Shown here piece by piece: positions 684 through 58,000 of a DNA stretch of 64,000 nt. Positions within the stretch are counted from its first letter, which is position 1, and each line of letters begins with the position of its first letter. The translations under genes were made by a program, and so were the position numbers. The stretch comes from SAR202 cluster bacterium (GTDB lineage Bacteria > Chloroflexota > Dehalococcoidia > Lucifugimonadales > UBA1123). The notes beneath the pieces are model-generated. The model did no database searches. It had not been told where the DNA came from and saw only the letters and a program-made list of their open reading frames with translations. The stretch is taken from the NCBI GenBank assembly GCA_030752795.1, contig JASMDM010000019.1, positions 1 through 64,000 of the forward strand, written 5' to 3'.

Positions 684-1196
684 CGGAGTTCCTCTGAATC
701 GCCACGTCGGCGCCTTAGCCGCCGCCGGGATGCCGTGTGAACAACACGCTCACGAGATGTAGAGTCCCGCTCTCGGACCGCGCCAACCCTTTGGCGTGGG
801 GCACGCCGATTCCGCCAAATCCGAGCCGTCCAGCGGCGCCAAAATGTTCGAGTAAATAACCGATTTCCTCCTCCGGTTGTAAAGTGTGTCGTCGGTCGAT
901 CGGATGACCGAATCGCCAAGTCAATATCGCAAGAACCGGCCATCGCTGGATCAGCCTGAGCCACTCGCGAGCGCTGCATTGCTGGTCGTTAACCGCCAGA
1001 CGGCGGCGGATTCGGACCCTTCCGGATCGGGATTCATCTTTGATCCTGCTCCCGCCAATCGCAACCGGAATACTTAATCACGGAAATCGACCGCGTCCCG
1101 TGGCTCGCGAACATGTTGACGCCCAAAACCGGACGGCTGTACGATTCCGCCATCCGGACGCTTCGATGGAGTACGACCTTCGCCTAGGAGGCTCAC
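684..1196. other. Intergenic region upstream of the selenoprotein pair
   Basis: About 510 bases without a convincing gene. A 69-codon minus-strand frame at 715-924 contains GIGVPHAK, faintly reminiscent of PTS EIIA domains, but it has no further support. The 3' end carries the strong ribosome binding site AGGAGG (1186-1191) of the next gene. No riboswitch was recognised. Confidence 0.5.
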
Positions 1197-2549
1197 ATGG
1201 ACAGCCCAGTCAGAGTGGTGCATTACCTGAACCAGTTCTTCGGCGGCATCGGCGGCGAAGAACATGCAAACCTGCCGGTGGAGACGCGCGGGGGCGCCGT
1301 CGGACCGGGCCGCGCGTTAAAGCAGGCTCTCGGCGATCAAGCGACCATCGTTGCGACGATCGTCGCCGGCGACAACTACTTCGTCGAAGAGGAACAGGCT
1401 TCCGCGCAATCGGCGATTTAGGCACTCAAGCAATACGACGCCGATGTCGTGGTTGCGGGTCCCGCGTTCGACGCCGGCCGATACGGCTTGGCATGCGCCC
1501 AGATGTGCAAGCTGGCCCAGGAACAGGGCGTTCCGGCCGTTACGGCCATGACCGACGACAATACGGGGATCATCACCTACGGAAATGACGTCGTTGCGAT
1601 TGCCACGGGCACAACGCCGACGGAGATGCGATCCATCATGGACCGGCTGGCGCCGGTCGCGCTCAAACTGGGCCGGGGAATTGAACTCGGTCCCGCGGAC
1701 GAAGAGGGCTATCTGCCAAGAGGAGTCCGGAAGCCGATTGTCCGCGAACGCGTTGGCGCGGCCAGGGCTGTTGACATGATCGAGGCGCGCCTTACCGGTC
1801 AGCCGTTCACCTCGGAAGTCTACGTCAAGCAGTACGATGACGTTGACCCGCCCGCGCCCATTTCGGGGTTGTCGGGGAAGACGATAGCGTTAGTGACAAG
1901 CGGCGGGATGGTGCCCCACGGCAATCCTGACCGGCTCGGCTCCGCCCGCGCGGAAGGCTTTTTCCGATACGACATCAGCGGCCTCGACGAGCTGACGGTT
2001 GGTGAATGGGAGTCGGTCCACGGCGGTTTCAACACTCAGTGGCTGAACACGAAGGATCCGGGCTACGCCCTGCCATTGCGCACCGTTCGGCAGCTTGAAT
2101 CCGAAGGCGCGATCGGCAACGTGTACGACGTGTACTTCGCGACGACAGGCAATCAGACGGCAGTCACCTCCGCACAGAAGATGGGCCGCGAGATCGCCGA
2201 GGAGTTGCGGGAACAGAAAGTCGACGCTGTCCTGCTCGTGGCGACTTGAGGAAGCTGCAATCGTTGCGGCGCAACGATCACGAAGGAGCTCGAACGAAGC
2301 GGGATTCCGGTCGCGATGATGACTGCCCTGCCGATCATTCCGATAGCCGTGGGCGCCAATCGAATCATCAGGGGCGTGCGCGTTGAACACGTGTGTGGTG
2401 ATCCGAGCCTGTCGGAGACGATGGACCGTGCGCTGACGCGGCGGATCGTCGAAACGGCGCTAGGCGCACTTCAGACTGCAGTCGACGGTCCGACACTGTT
2501 CGAACCCGCCGAACCCTCTGAAGCCAGGGAGGCAGTTCATGCGTCTTGA
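1197..2549 (+). CDS. grdB: Glycine/sarcosine/betaine reductase component B selenoprotein (GrdB-like), with in-frame TAG
   Basis: The protein is homologous along its length to GrdB/GrdF/GrdH, the selenocysteine subunit that attacks the C-N bond of glycine, sarcosine or betaine. The N-terminus VVHYLNQFFGGIGGEE and AGPAFDAGRYG are family hallmarks. Read straight through, the frame is 450 codons, close to the usual ~436. Codon 351 is TGA (2247-2249) in the motif T-U-GSCNRCGAT, which is the family's UxxCxxC site (Sec351, Cys354, Cys357), and homology continues after it to 2549. A SECIS-type hairpin follows the TGA. A second stop, TAG at codon 75 (1419-1421, in SAI*ALKQYD), lies inside conserved sequence and is not explained by recoding; nonsense mutation or sequencing error is likely. 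The ATG is fixed by AGGAGG five bases upstream. It overlaps the GrdE-like gene by 11 bases. No grdA, grdC, grdD or sel genes are in the window, so the substrate is open. Confidence 0.85.
2250..2280 (+). promoter_or_regulatory. Bacterial SECIS element for the GrdB UGA codon
   Basis: Directly after the TGA, ATCGTTGC (2260-2267) pairs perfectly with GCAACGAT (2271-2278) around a GGC loop (2268-2270). Eighteen bases separate the UGA from the loop and the loop begins with G. This meets the published bacterial SECIS pattern (apical loop 16-37 nt from UGA, stem of 4-16 bp, a G in the first two loop positions). It sits in the coding sequence, as bacterial SECIS elements do, and would bind SelB. Confidence 0.8.
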
Positions 2550-8618: not shown

Positions 8619-9689
8619 ATGGACGAGAAGCCGATGGACCAGGCCCAAGCGGAAGTGTCCGCGAACACGGCATTTGTCGATGTGGCGGCGGCGTTTACCG
8701 TGACGATGTGCGCCATCGGGAACCGCTTGGGTTTATTCAAGATCCTCGGTAGCGACGGACCAGCTACAAGCAGCGAGTTGGCAAAACGGGCAGGAATCAA
8801 CGAACGGTATTCGTTGGAATGGTTGAGCGCCTTGACGTGCGCCGGCTATTTGGATTACAACCCCGACTCGCAACGGTTCGCACTTCCGCGTGAGCACGCT
8901 CCCGTCCTGGCTCACGAAGGCGGGCCACTGTTCATGGGCGGCACGCATCAGCAGATGCCACCGACGCTAAAGCCCGTCGATCAGGTTATTCAGGCATTTA
9001 GAAACGGCGGCGGCATCTCACAATCCGTGTATGGCCACGATTATTGGGTTGGTTTCGAGCGGCTGACCAACAGTTGGTTTGAAAATTTGCTGACACAACG
9101 GTGGATACCGGCCATGCCTGGACTTCAACAGAAGTTAAGGCAAGGCGCCACGGTTGCCGACGTCGGTTGTGGCAACGATCGAGCGTTGATCAAAATGGCC
9201 AAGATTTATCCAGAGTCTAGATACGTAGGATACGACAACCATCCTCCATCGATAGAATATGCAGTTAGAAATGCCCAAGAAGCCGGCGTGACCAACAAGG
9301 CCCGCTTCGTTGAGCTCGACGTGACGGATGGGTTCCCTGAGAAATACGACCTCATAACAACGTTCGACGTCATCCACGACATGGTGATTCCTCGCCGCGC
9401 GCTCAAAGCTATTTGAAATGGCCTGAAGCCTGACGGCACATATCTCCTGCTGGATTTCAATTCGTCAGACAAACTCGAAGAAGAGATCGGGCCGATTGGA
9501 ACAATGCTTTACGGGGTCAGCGTCATGTTCTGCATGACAACATCGCTGGCCGAAGGCGGCGAAGGGCTTGGTACGGCCGGATTTCATCCCAAAAAGGTGC
9601 GGGAACTGTGTTTGGAGGCAGAATTCAGTTCCGTCCGCCGACTGCCCTTGGACGACCCACTCAACATCCTGTACGAAATAAGACCATAG
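8619..9689 (+). pseudogene. SAM-dependent methyltransferase with winged-helix N-terminus, in-frame TGA
   Basis: The frame reads 8619-9689 (356 codons) but for one TGA at 9414-9416. Residues ~20-85 form a dimerisation/winged-helix region (LGLFKILGSDGPATSSELAKRAG). The Rossmann methyltransferase core follows with DVGCGNDRALIKMA, VGYDNHPP and TTFDVIHDM. Immediately after ALKAI comes TGA, then NGLKPDGTYLLLDFN, the normal continuation of the family. The expected residue is usually Arg, so CGA to TGA is a simple explanation. No SECIS-like hairpin follows and this is not a redox site, so selenocysteine is unlikely. Methyl acceptor unknown; small-molecule or O-methyltransferase type. Strong GGAGG precedes the ATG. 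Confidence 0.75.
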
Positions 9690-46918: not shown

Positions 46919-46957
46919 GGGGCAGAAGATTTGACGCCTAATACGACCAGATAGCTC

Positions 46958-48571
46958 ATGTCGCCACTACATCATTCCGGCCGAGAACTGGAACTGACCG
47001 CCGGACGGTCTCTGTTCGACTACGCCGACAACCTCGCGTTGCGTGTGCCGACGTCGTGCGCACGCACCGGTGAGTGCCACGAGTGCATCGTAGAGATCAA
47101 GCGCGGAATGGGCGCGCTCGACCCGCCAACCGAGTCGGAGCGGTTCCTGCGCGACAACTACCGCCTCGCTTGCCAGGCGCGGATCGTCGATGCCGAAGCA
47201 GACATCGAGTTCGCGGTATTGCGCCGCCAGCCGCGGATCCTGACGGATTCGATTCGACGAGACGTCGCGCTCGACCCTCGCACGACTAGATCGGGTGACG
47301 ACGTTCGGTACCTCGGCGAACGGATCGACGCCTATCGAGGCAAGATCTACGGTTTGGCTGTCGATGTCGGCACCACCACGGTCGTCATGAACCTCGTGGA
47401 CCTCGAAAGCGGGGACGTGTTGCACACGGCGTCGTTCGAGAATCCGCAGCGTTTCGGCGGCAGCGACATCATGCATCGCATCTCTTACGACGGCGGCAGT
47501 TACAACGGTGAGCTCCGCCAGGTGATGCTGTCGTCCATCAATTTCGAGATTGGCGACATGGCCCGCACACTTGGGTTTCATCGACGCAACATCTACGAGG
47601 TCGTCATCGTGGGCAACTCCACGATGCGCGACCTGGTGTTCGGACTGGACGTGCAGCCGATCGGCGAAAAACCGTACCGATCCGTGACCGAGTTGGCACT
47701 GAAGGACGGCGAACTGGAAACGACCGCCCTTTCGCGCACCGCCCTTGAGATGGATTTGAGAGTGTTCCCAGCCGCGCACGTCTATGGCGGTCCGCTCATC
47801 GGGTGCCACGTCGGCGCCGACGTCACGGCCGACCTGCTGGCGATTGGCATCGACGAGCAGGAAGACATCGTGATGATGGTCGACGTCGGGACCAACACCG
47901 AGGTCGTCATCGGGAATCGCCACCGATTGATCGCCGCGTCGTGCCCAGCCGGTCCCGCCTTCGAGGGAGGGCAGATCGCCTACGGGATGCCCGGATACGA
48001 CGGCGCCGTGGAGTCCGTGCGAATCGACAACGGCACGGCCGCCATCGAAACGATCGGTCACGCCGAACCCCAGGGAATTTGTGGTTCCGGGCTCGTCGAC
48101 CTGCTCGCGGAGCTCCGGCGCAACGATATGATCACCGAGCTCGGCGCGTTCACCGGCGGAGAGAGCGAGTTCGTTTTCGCGCCCGAAAGGCAGATGTCGT
48201 TGAGTCGGGCCGACATCAGCTCACTGGCCCAGGCCAAATCGGCCAACTACGCGGGTCAGTTCATACTTTTGCGAGAGTACGACACTCCAATCCAACAGGT
48301 GTCTGGTTTGTATCTGGCGGGAGGATTTGCCAACTACATCAACGTCGAGAACGCGTTGGGGATCGGATTCATAGCCAACTTCCCGCCCGCGAACATCACA
48401 AAAGTAGGCAATGCGGCGCTGGAGGGGGCGACGATCATGCTCCTGTCGAATGAACTCCGACAACGGGCAGAGACAATCGCCAAAGACATTACGCACGTTG
48501 AGCTCGAGTCCATCCCCGATTTCTTTGACATATTCGTCGATGGCTGCATGTTCAGGCCCATGGCGATGTAG
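46958..48571 (+). CDS. [2Fe-2S] ferredoxin-ASKHA protein, RACo/RamA-like corrinoid activator (DUF4445)
   Basis: 537 residues. The N-terminal ferredoxin-like domain has Cys34, Cys40, Cys43 and Cys72 (C-x5-C-x2-C-x28-C) for a [2Fe-2S] cluster. After a linker comes the ATPase fold of the ASKHA group: GLAVDVGTTTVVMNL (near residue 130), VIVGNSTMRDLVFG, MMVDVGTNTEVVIGN, and QGICGSGLVDLL. This is the plan of RACo and RamA, which reductively reactivate Co(II) corrinoid proteins for methyl transfer. No corrinoid protein or methyltransferase gene of that type is in the window, so the client is unknown. The start ATG is 39 bases after the SRPBCC stop. Confidence 0.88.
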   Translation: MSPLHHSGRELELTAGRSLFDYADNLALRVPTSCARTGECHECIVEIKRGMGALDPPTESERFLRDNYRLACQARIVDAEADIEFAVLRRQPRILTDSIRRDVALDPRTTRSGDDVRYLGERIDAYRGKIYGLAVDVGTTTVVMNLVDLESGDVLHTASFENPQRFGGSDIMHRISYDGGSYNGELRQVMLSSINFEIGDMARTLGFHRRNIYEVVIVGNSTMRDLVFGLDVQPIGEKPYRSVTELALKDGELETTALSRTALEMDLRVFPAAHVYGGPLIGCHVGADVTADLLAIGIDEQEDIVMMVDVGTNTEVVIGNRHRLIAASCPAGPAFEGGQIAYGMPGYDGAVESVRIDNGTAAIETIGHAEPQGICGSGLVDLLAELRRNDMITELGAFTGGESEFVFAPERQMSLSRADISSLAQAKSANYAGQFILLREYDTPIQQVSGLYLAGGFANYINVENALGIGFIANFPPANITKVGNAALEGATIMLLSNELRQRAETIAKDITHVELESIPDFFDIFVDGCMFRPMAM

Positions 48572-57865: not shown

Positions 57866-57875
57866 CTTGCGAATT

Positions 57876-57977
57876 CCGGGAAACCTCGTCCCTTCGCTGG
57901 CATTACCCAGATCAGGTTCTCGGGGTCGACAGCGTCTCGGCTGCCCTCTCAGCCTGGCTTCCCAAGCTCCCCCCGGG
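57876..57977 (-). ncRNA. TPP riboswitch (THI element)
   Basis: On the minus strand the aptamer has the conserved CTGAGA (near 57947-57952) and ACCTGATCTGGGTAATGCCA followed by GCGAAGGGA (57890-57918), the canonical TPP-sensor core. P1 is formed by CCGGGGG (57971-57977) with TTCCCGG (57876-57882). It senses thiamine pyrophosphate and switches the downstream terminator, turning off the ThiZXY-TenA-ThiD salvage operon when vitamin is plentiful. Confidence 0.96.
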
Positions 57978-58000
57978 TGATCATATTTCAACTTGGGGCA

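Follow-up and report, generated by a model that had tools for sequence, protein, structure and literature searches.

The stretch of DNA analysed here (64,000 nucleotides, hereafter the window) carries near one end a grdB-like gene whose frame runs from an ATG at 1197 to a terminal TGA at 2547-2549, followed by a grdE-like gene (Table 1). A Pfam search of the 1.2 kb upstream of the grdB-like gene gave no significant match, and no transporter or other substrate-indicating gene was found near the GrdB/GrdE pair. At the contig end (1-700) two overlapping ORFs, 46-495 and 144-683, which end in a membrane anchor and have no Pfam match, look like one gene split by a frameshift near 475-490. Elsewhere the window holds a TPP riboswitch (57872-57983, minus strand, 67.6 bits) and a gene for a RACo-type corrinoid-protein activator (46955-48571), which is followed in the same frame by a 2-hydroxyacid dehydrogenase gene.

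Table 1. Coordinates of the features at the grdB-like locus.
Feature	Position	Strand	Remarks
Shine-Dalgarno-like AGGAGG 5' of the ATG	1183..1190 (approximate)	+	CCTAGGAGGCTCACATGG, from direct reading
GrdB-like selenoprotein gene	1197..2549	+	450 aa with TAG and TGA both read through; PF07355 399 bits, TIGR01918 436 bits
In-frame TAG, codon 75, premature stop	1419..1421	+	variable protein position; absent from extracted homologs
Selenocysteine codon TGA (predicted), residue 1 of UxxCxxC motif	2247..2249	+	context AT-U-GSCNRC
Bacterial SECIS hairpin (predicted), 8-bp stem and GGC loop	2260..2278	+	recoding test, covariation, reference comparison
GrdE-like partner, 426 aa	2539..3819	+	PF09338 215 bits; overlaps grdB end by 11 nt

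The GrdB-like protein is a member of the TIGR01918 subfamily (glycine/betaine/sarcosine/D-proline reductase selenoprotein B), matching the profile over its whole length (residues 6-436; 436 bits against a cut-off of 65.45). A preliminary description of the locus had claimed homology beyond the TGA at 2247 as far as 2549 and a Chloroflexota origin; the first is borne out by the full-length family match in the continuing frame, and the second by the named relatives of the window GrdB, which are Chloroflexota/Dehalococcoidia MAGs. Searches against solved structures returned no relative for GrdB and none for GrdE.

Bacterial selenocysteine insertion calls for an in-frame TGA and a hairpin with a G in a small apical loop approximately 16-37 nt downstream. 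In the window the arms ATCGTTGC (2260-2267) and GCAACGAT (2271-2278) enclose a GGC loop (2268-2270) that begins 18 nt past the TGA, and every element that had been described beforehand (the motif T-U-GSCNRC, the perfect 8-bp stem, the loop and its spacing) is present. Plain dinucleotide shuffling of the 54-nt TGA stretch was uninformative, the hairpin not being outstanding by that measure (z = -0.11), and a synonymous-codon null was adopted in its place. When the same peptide was recoded with synonymous codons, the hairpin stood out, with an energy of -8.6 kcal/mol where the recoded sequences averaged -1.3 (p = 0.003). Among 46 homologs from the bacterium's own order, 39 gave p <= 0.05 under this null. 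In 44 of the 46 a loop lies 17-18 nt past the TGA, the two exceptions (L088 and L095) each having one mismatch inside the stem. Across 37 distinct aligned sequences, 29 cells were changed on both sides of a pair compared with 11.4 in shuffles; the observed score was reached by 0 of 500 shuffles, a count that should not be read as a probability since the aligned rows are related, and sliding the pairing abolished the signal. The stem alternates between UCGUUGC/GCAACGA in the type with the Cys motif and UCGCAGC/GCUGCGA in the type with the Ser motif. Hairpins nearly identical to that of the window are found in grdF of Peptoclostridium acidaminophilum, at the same place, and in grdH of Enterococcus gilvus.

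The draft genome to which the window belongs (3.5 Mb in 116 contigs, 91% complete) contains selA (545 bits), selB, a tRNA-Sec with the anticodon TCA (UCA) and selD (C44:28477-29397, L034), whose own reading frame also contains a TGA. The organism would thus have the machinery to make selenoproteins, as had been proposed along with a search for selA, selB, selC and selD. Reading TGA 2247 as a plain stop, with the frame downstream of it a relic, could appeal to the other in-frame stops of the window; it is nevertheless highly improbable in view of this machinery, the covariation of the SECIS stem and the TGA found at the equivalent codon of the full-length homologs. No Cys form was seen among these homologs and the hairpin is conserved. 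We conclude from these comparisons that TGA 2247-2249 is a predicted selenocysteine codon in a glycine-reductase-like gene, and the earlier placement of the gene among GrdB-like selenoproteins that carry a SECIS element is upheld by the recoding test and the covariation.

The frame between the start and the Sec codon is not open, being broken by the TAG at codon 75, which was overlooked in the earlier reading of the same gene. Because of this codon a full-length protein is impossible as assembled and expression of the gene is doubtful, and the window copy is probably silent as sequenced. A comparable internal stop occurs in none of the other GrdB paralogs of the genome nor in the homologs extracted from the order (the X letters in one homolog row, L050, are unread bases). 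TAG is a normal stop in this genome, terminating 12 of 38 long ORFs, and the extensions beyond it are mostly non-coding. Its use as a sense codon is therefore unlikely, the more so as position 75 is variable and is not a Sec/Cys site; the only strong coding continuation past a TAG, at 48569-48571, turned out to be the border of two separate genes, those for the RACo-type activator and the 2-hydroxyacid dehydrogenase. Reinitiation at GTG 1449 was also rejected on sequence grounds, since a product starting there would be without the N-terminal motifs YLNQ..GGE and AGDN, and the codon has no evident ribosome-binding site. A further in-frame stop, TGA 9414-9416, lies without Sec-like context in a SAM methyltransferase gene (8619 to approximately 9683). 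Reading through it lifts the Pfam domain score from 53.9 to 67.2 bits and the coding signal continues past it; it is probably another nonsense codon or an assembly error.

Two explanations of the TAG appear about equally likely. The gene may have been inactivated recently by mutation of a sense codon to TAG, which would make it a very young pseudogene whose Sec codon and SECIS element are relics; we give this somewhat less than an even chance. Besides the in-frame TAG and its role as an ordinary stop (12 of 38 long ORFs), the truncated methyltransferase gene provides a second interrupted gene in the same window, and no ortholog of the window copy occurs in the sister genome of the genus, which does have close orthologs of four of the five other GrdB paralogs (those on contigs C66 and C83 and both on C101). 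In the rows compared, no sister copy was seen for the paralog on C107 either. Against inactivation, the protein retains every residue common to all of the other 36 type-1 homologs, its branch length is ordinary, there is no frameshift, codon use is coding-like on either side of the TAG, and both the ribosome-binding site and grdE are intact. This lack of decay would equally be expected if the gene were intact and the TAG a base error of the metagenome assembly, an explanation that is also a real possibility, though short of even. The gene starts 1.2 kb from a contig end in a 116-contig draft, and the further apparent nonsense codon, at 9414, points to noise in the sequence or to a stretch undergoing decay; however, assemblies with good coverage seldom contain single-base substitution errors. 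For annotation, the case illustrates that a genuine selenoprotein gene may still carry a second, ordinary stop.

The GrdE and GrdG subunits of glycine and sarcosine reductases are pro-proteins in which a cysteine becomes a pyruvoyl group, whereas neither the betaine-type subunit nor FarE has this cysteine (PMC10838667). In the GrdE-like protein of the window the sequence LDGAVSQRHSW has no cysteine after LDGA, where GrdG has MDGAITSGNC, and no pyruvoyl group is therefore expected. Asn-Cys after DGA is missing from all 54 GrdE-like ORFs of Chloroflexota. Among the references, SGNC follows DGA in the annotated sarcosine GrdG and in two further GrdE-like proteins, and is lacking from the E. gilvus betaine subunit and from an Acetoanaerobium subunit. 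The betaine-type cluster shows that a lost pyruvoyl cysteine is, by itself, nothing new.

The preliminary description had noted that no grdA, grdC or grdD lies nearby. This holds at the locus itself but not genome-wide, where the search that it had suggested recovered grdA and grdC, and not grdD. The genome has six GrdB-like genes, mostly on other contigs and all with a TGA at the same place. Contig C101 carries two GrdB/GrdE pairs together with the one GrdA of the genome (C101:17181-17621, with a Sec codon) and its one GrdC (component C beta; 624 bits against a cut-off of 450). A second type of GrdB-like protein, encoded on C107 (L071, 9419-10684) and at similar loci, has the motif UGTSTRS, which keeps Sec but not the cysteines of CxxC. 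On a contig of 3,034 bases (L046 / L087) two tandem GrdB-like copies are near-identical around the Sec codon, possibly through recent duplication or as an assembly artefact.

The same pattern extends across the order. GrdA was found in 19 of the 24 GrdB-bearing genomes and GrdC in 20, all 20 of which keep the FCxxP cysteine that is also present in the annotated GrdC of E. gilvus. GrdD (component C alpha), which in clostridia carries the acetyl-phosphate-forming step, was not found in the window's genome and exceeded the cut-off in none of the 24, assemblies of one to six contigs included; this absence refers to one profile only, which a diverged replacement could escape. No conserved stand-in for GrdD beside grdA/grdC was recognised by eye in 17 loci. 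A solved-structure search with GrdC matched only beta-ketoacyl synthases. A haem-copper oxidase subunit scored over its cut-off in 21 of the 24 genomes, which fits poorly with an oxygen-sensitive selenoenzyme unless it operates at low oxygen.

It is unlikely that the window pair belongs to an ordinary glycine, sarcosine or betaine reductase that yields acetyl phosphate and whose GrdD has diverged beyond the reach of the profile. As this reading would have it, GrdA and GrdC are unremarkable representatives of their families, and the highest subtype score is that for GrdF. However, that score falls far under its cut-off (NF040794, 447.6 against 800 bits), as do those for GrdB (TIGR01917, 398.9 against an equivalog cut-off of 602.2) and GrdH (NF040795, 385.8 against 775); the score for FarE is also under its cut-off (NF053623, 92.9 against 675). 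The glycine and sarcosine motifs as published, AHGGxD and IHGGYDR, require Asp (PMC9751293), whereas the window protein reads VHGGFN, and the residue is not Asp in any aligned type-1 row. The weak GrdD matches that were seen (18-29 bits) also lie outside the clusters. In an unrooted tree with references, the window clade is apart from the characterised GrdB, GrdF and GrdH, so that the comparison proposed at the outset places it outside all three.

The best explanation of the whole, and one that we hold with some confidence, is that the window carries a Sec/SECIS GrdB paralog of a GrdD-less, pyruvoyl-less variant, in a copy interrupted by the TAG. This system is best read as a substrate-divergent variant of the glycine-reductase family. 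Its substrates and product probably differ from those of the textbook enzyme, and the difference in product we infer. The preliminary description had suspected as much of the product; its argument from the absence of grdA and grdC is not supported by the genome, and the suspicion finds other support in the lack of GrdD (0/24) and of the pyruvoyl cysteine (0/54).

In the scheme that we propose, SelB and tRNA-Sec would read TGA 2247-2249 with the aid of the hairpin, and the GrdB product would make up, with the GrdE-like protein of the adjoining gene, a protein B specific for its substrate. Attack by the Sec selenolate on the leaving-group-bearing carbon of what is presumably a small carboxylate would give a selenoether; as in the betaine and fluoroacetate reductases, the attack would proceed without Schiff-base activation, there being no pyruvoyl group. 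The selenoether would then be handed to the Sec of GrdA and give rise to an acyl thioester on GrdC. As there is no GrdD, the acyl group would be released to an acceptor other than phosphate, or to water, and because the GrdC fold is ketoacyl-synthase-like, CoA acting by thiolysis is the simplest guess. We also infer the flow of electrons in this system; a DUF255 thioredoxin-like protein that recurs beside the Ser-motif type of GrdB, often with GrdA and GrdC, may serve as electron donor rather than as acyl transferase.

Textbook glycine reductase has been described in strict anaerobes, where the energy is conserved through GrdD in the form of acetyl phosphate. Tentatively, we suggest that in this order of oxidase-bearing Chloroflexota many GrdB/GrdE pairs supply a single GrdA and a single GrdC, from which acyl-CoA and not acetyl phosphate is released, each pair acting on a different small carboxylate with an alpha leaving group (betaine-like, sulfonium, halogenated or other). 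If true, the same chemistry would be put to a different use, the substrate selenoproteins being multiplied and GrdA and GrdC kept while GrdD and the pyruvoyl group are dropped, in organisms with terminal oxidases, and these uncultured Chloroflexota would become candidates for the reductive removal of alpha substituents from small acids.

Among known systems, GrdF/GrdG of P. acidaminophilum is similar in its selenoprotein (42% identity over 96% of the window GrdB), with Sec at the same place in a UGxCxRC motif and the SECIS hairpin already described. It differs in that the SGNC cysteine of GrdG becomes a pyruvoyl group, whereas the window partner has LDGAVSQRH, and in its IHGGYD, which is VHGGFN in the window protein. 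The betaine reductase GrdH/GrdI of E. gilvus pCR1A shares the Sec and SECIS and a GrdI-type partner without Asn-Cys; however, GrdH has approximately 40% identity to the window GrdB and belongs to a separate clade, and grdD, trxA, trxB and a BCCT transporter gene adjoin in its cluster. FarB/FarE of Cloacibacillus porcorum resembles the window pair in that FarE has no pyruvoyl cysteines, and is predicted to pass its selenoether to a shared GrdA/C (PMC10838667). FarB lacks CxxC, in which the UGTSTRS type of C107 resembles it as described, while the window GrdB retains UxxCxxC; beside the window pair, unlike FarB/FarE, no radical-SAM or transporter gene was recognised. Glycine reductases of Dehalococcoidia and Lithacetigenota have been reported from serpentinite waters (PMC9751293, PMC9469722), with GrdBE-type selenoproteins in Dehalococcoidia, and a GrdEBCA cluster, with GrdD not named, is listed in Lost City MAGs (PMC9469722). 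The serpentinite glycine reductases were chosen by the AHGGxD motif (PMC9751293), which the window protein does not have. The window gene adds a new member to a known family of selenoproteins, within a branch that is uncharacterised.
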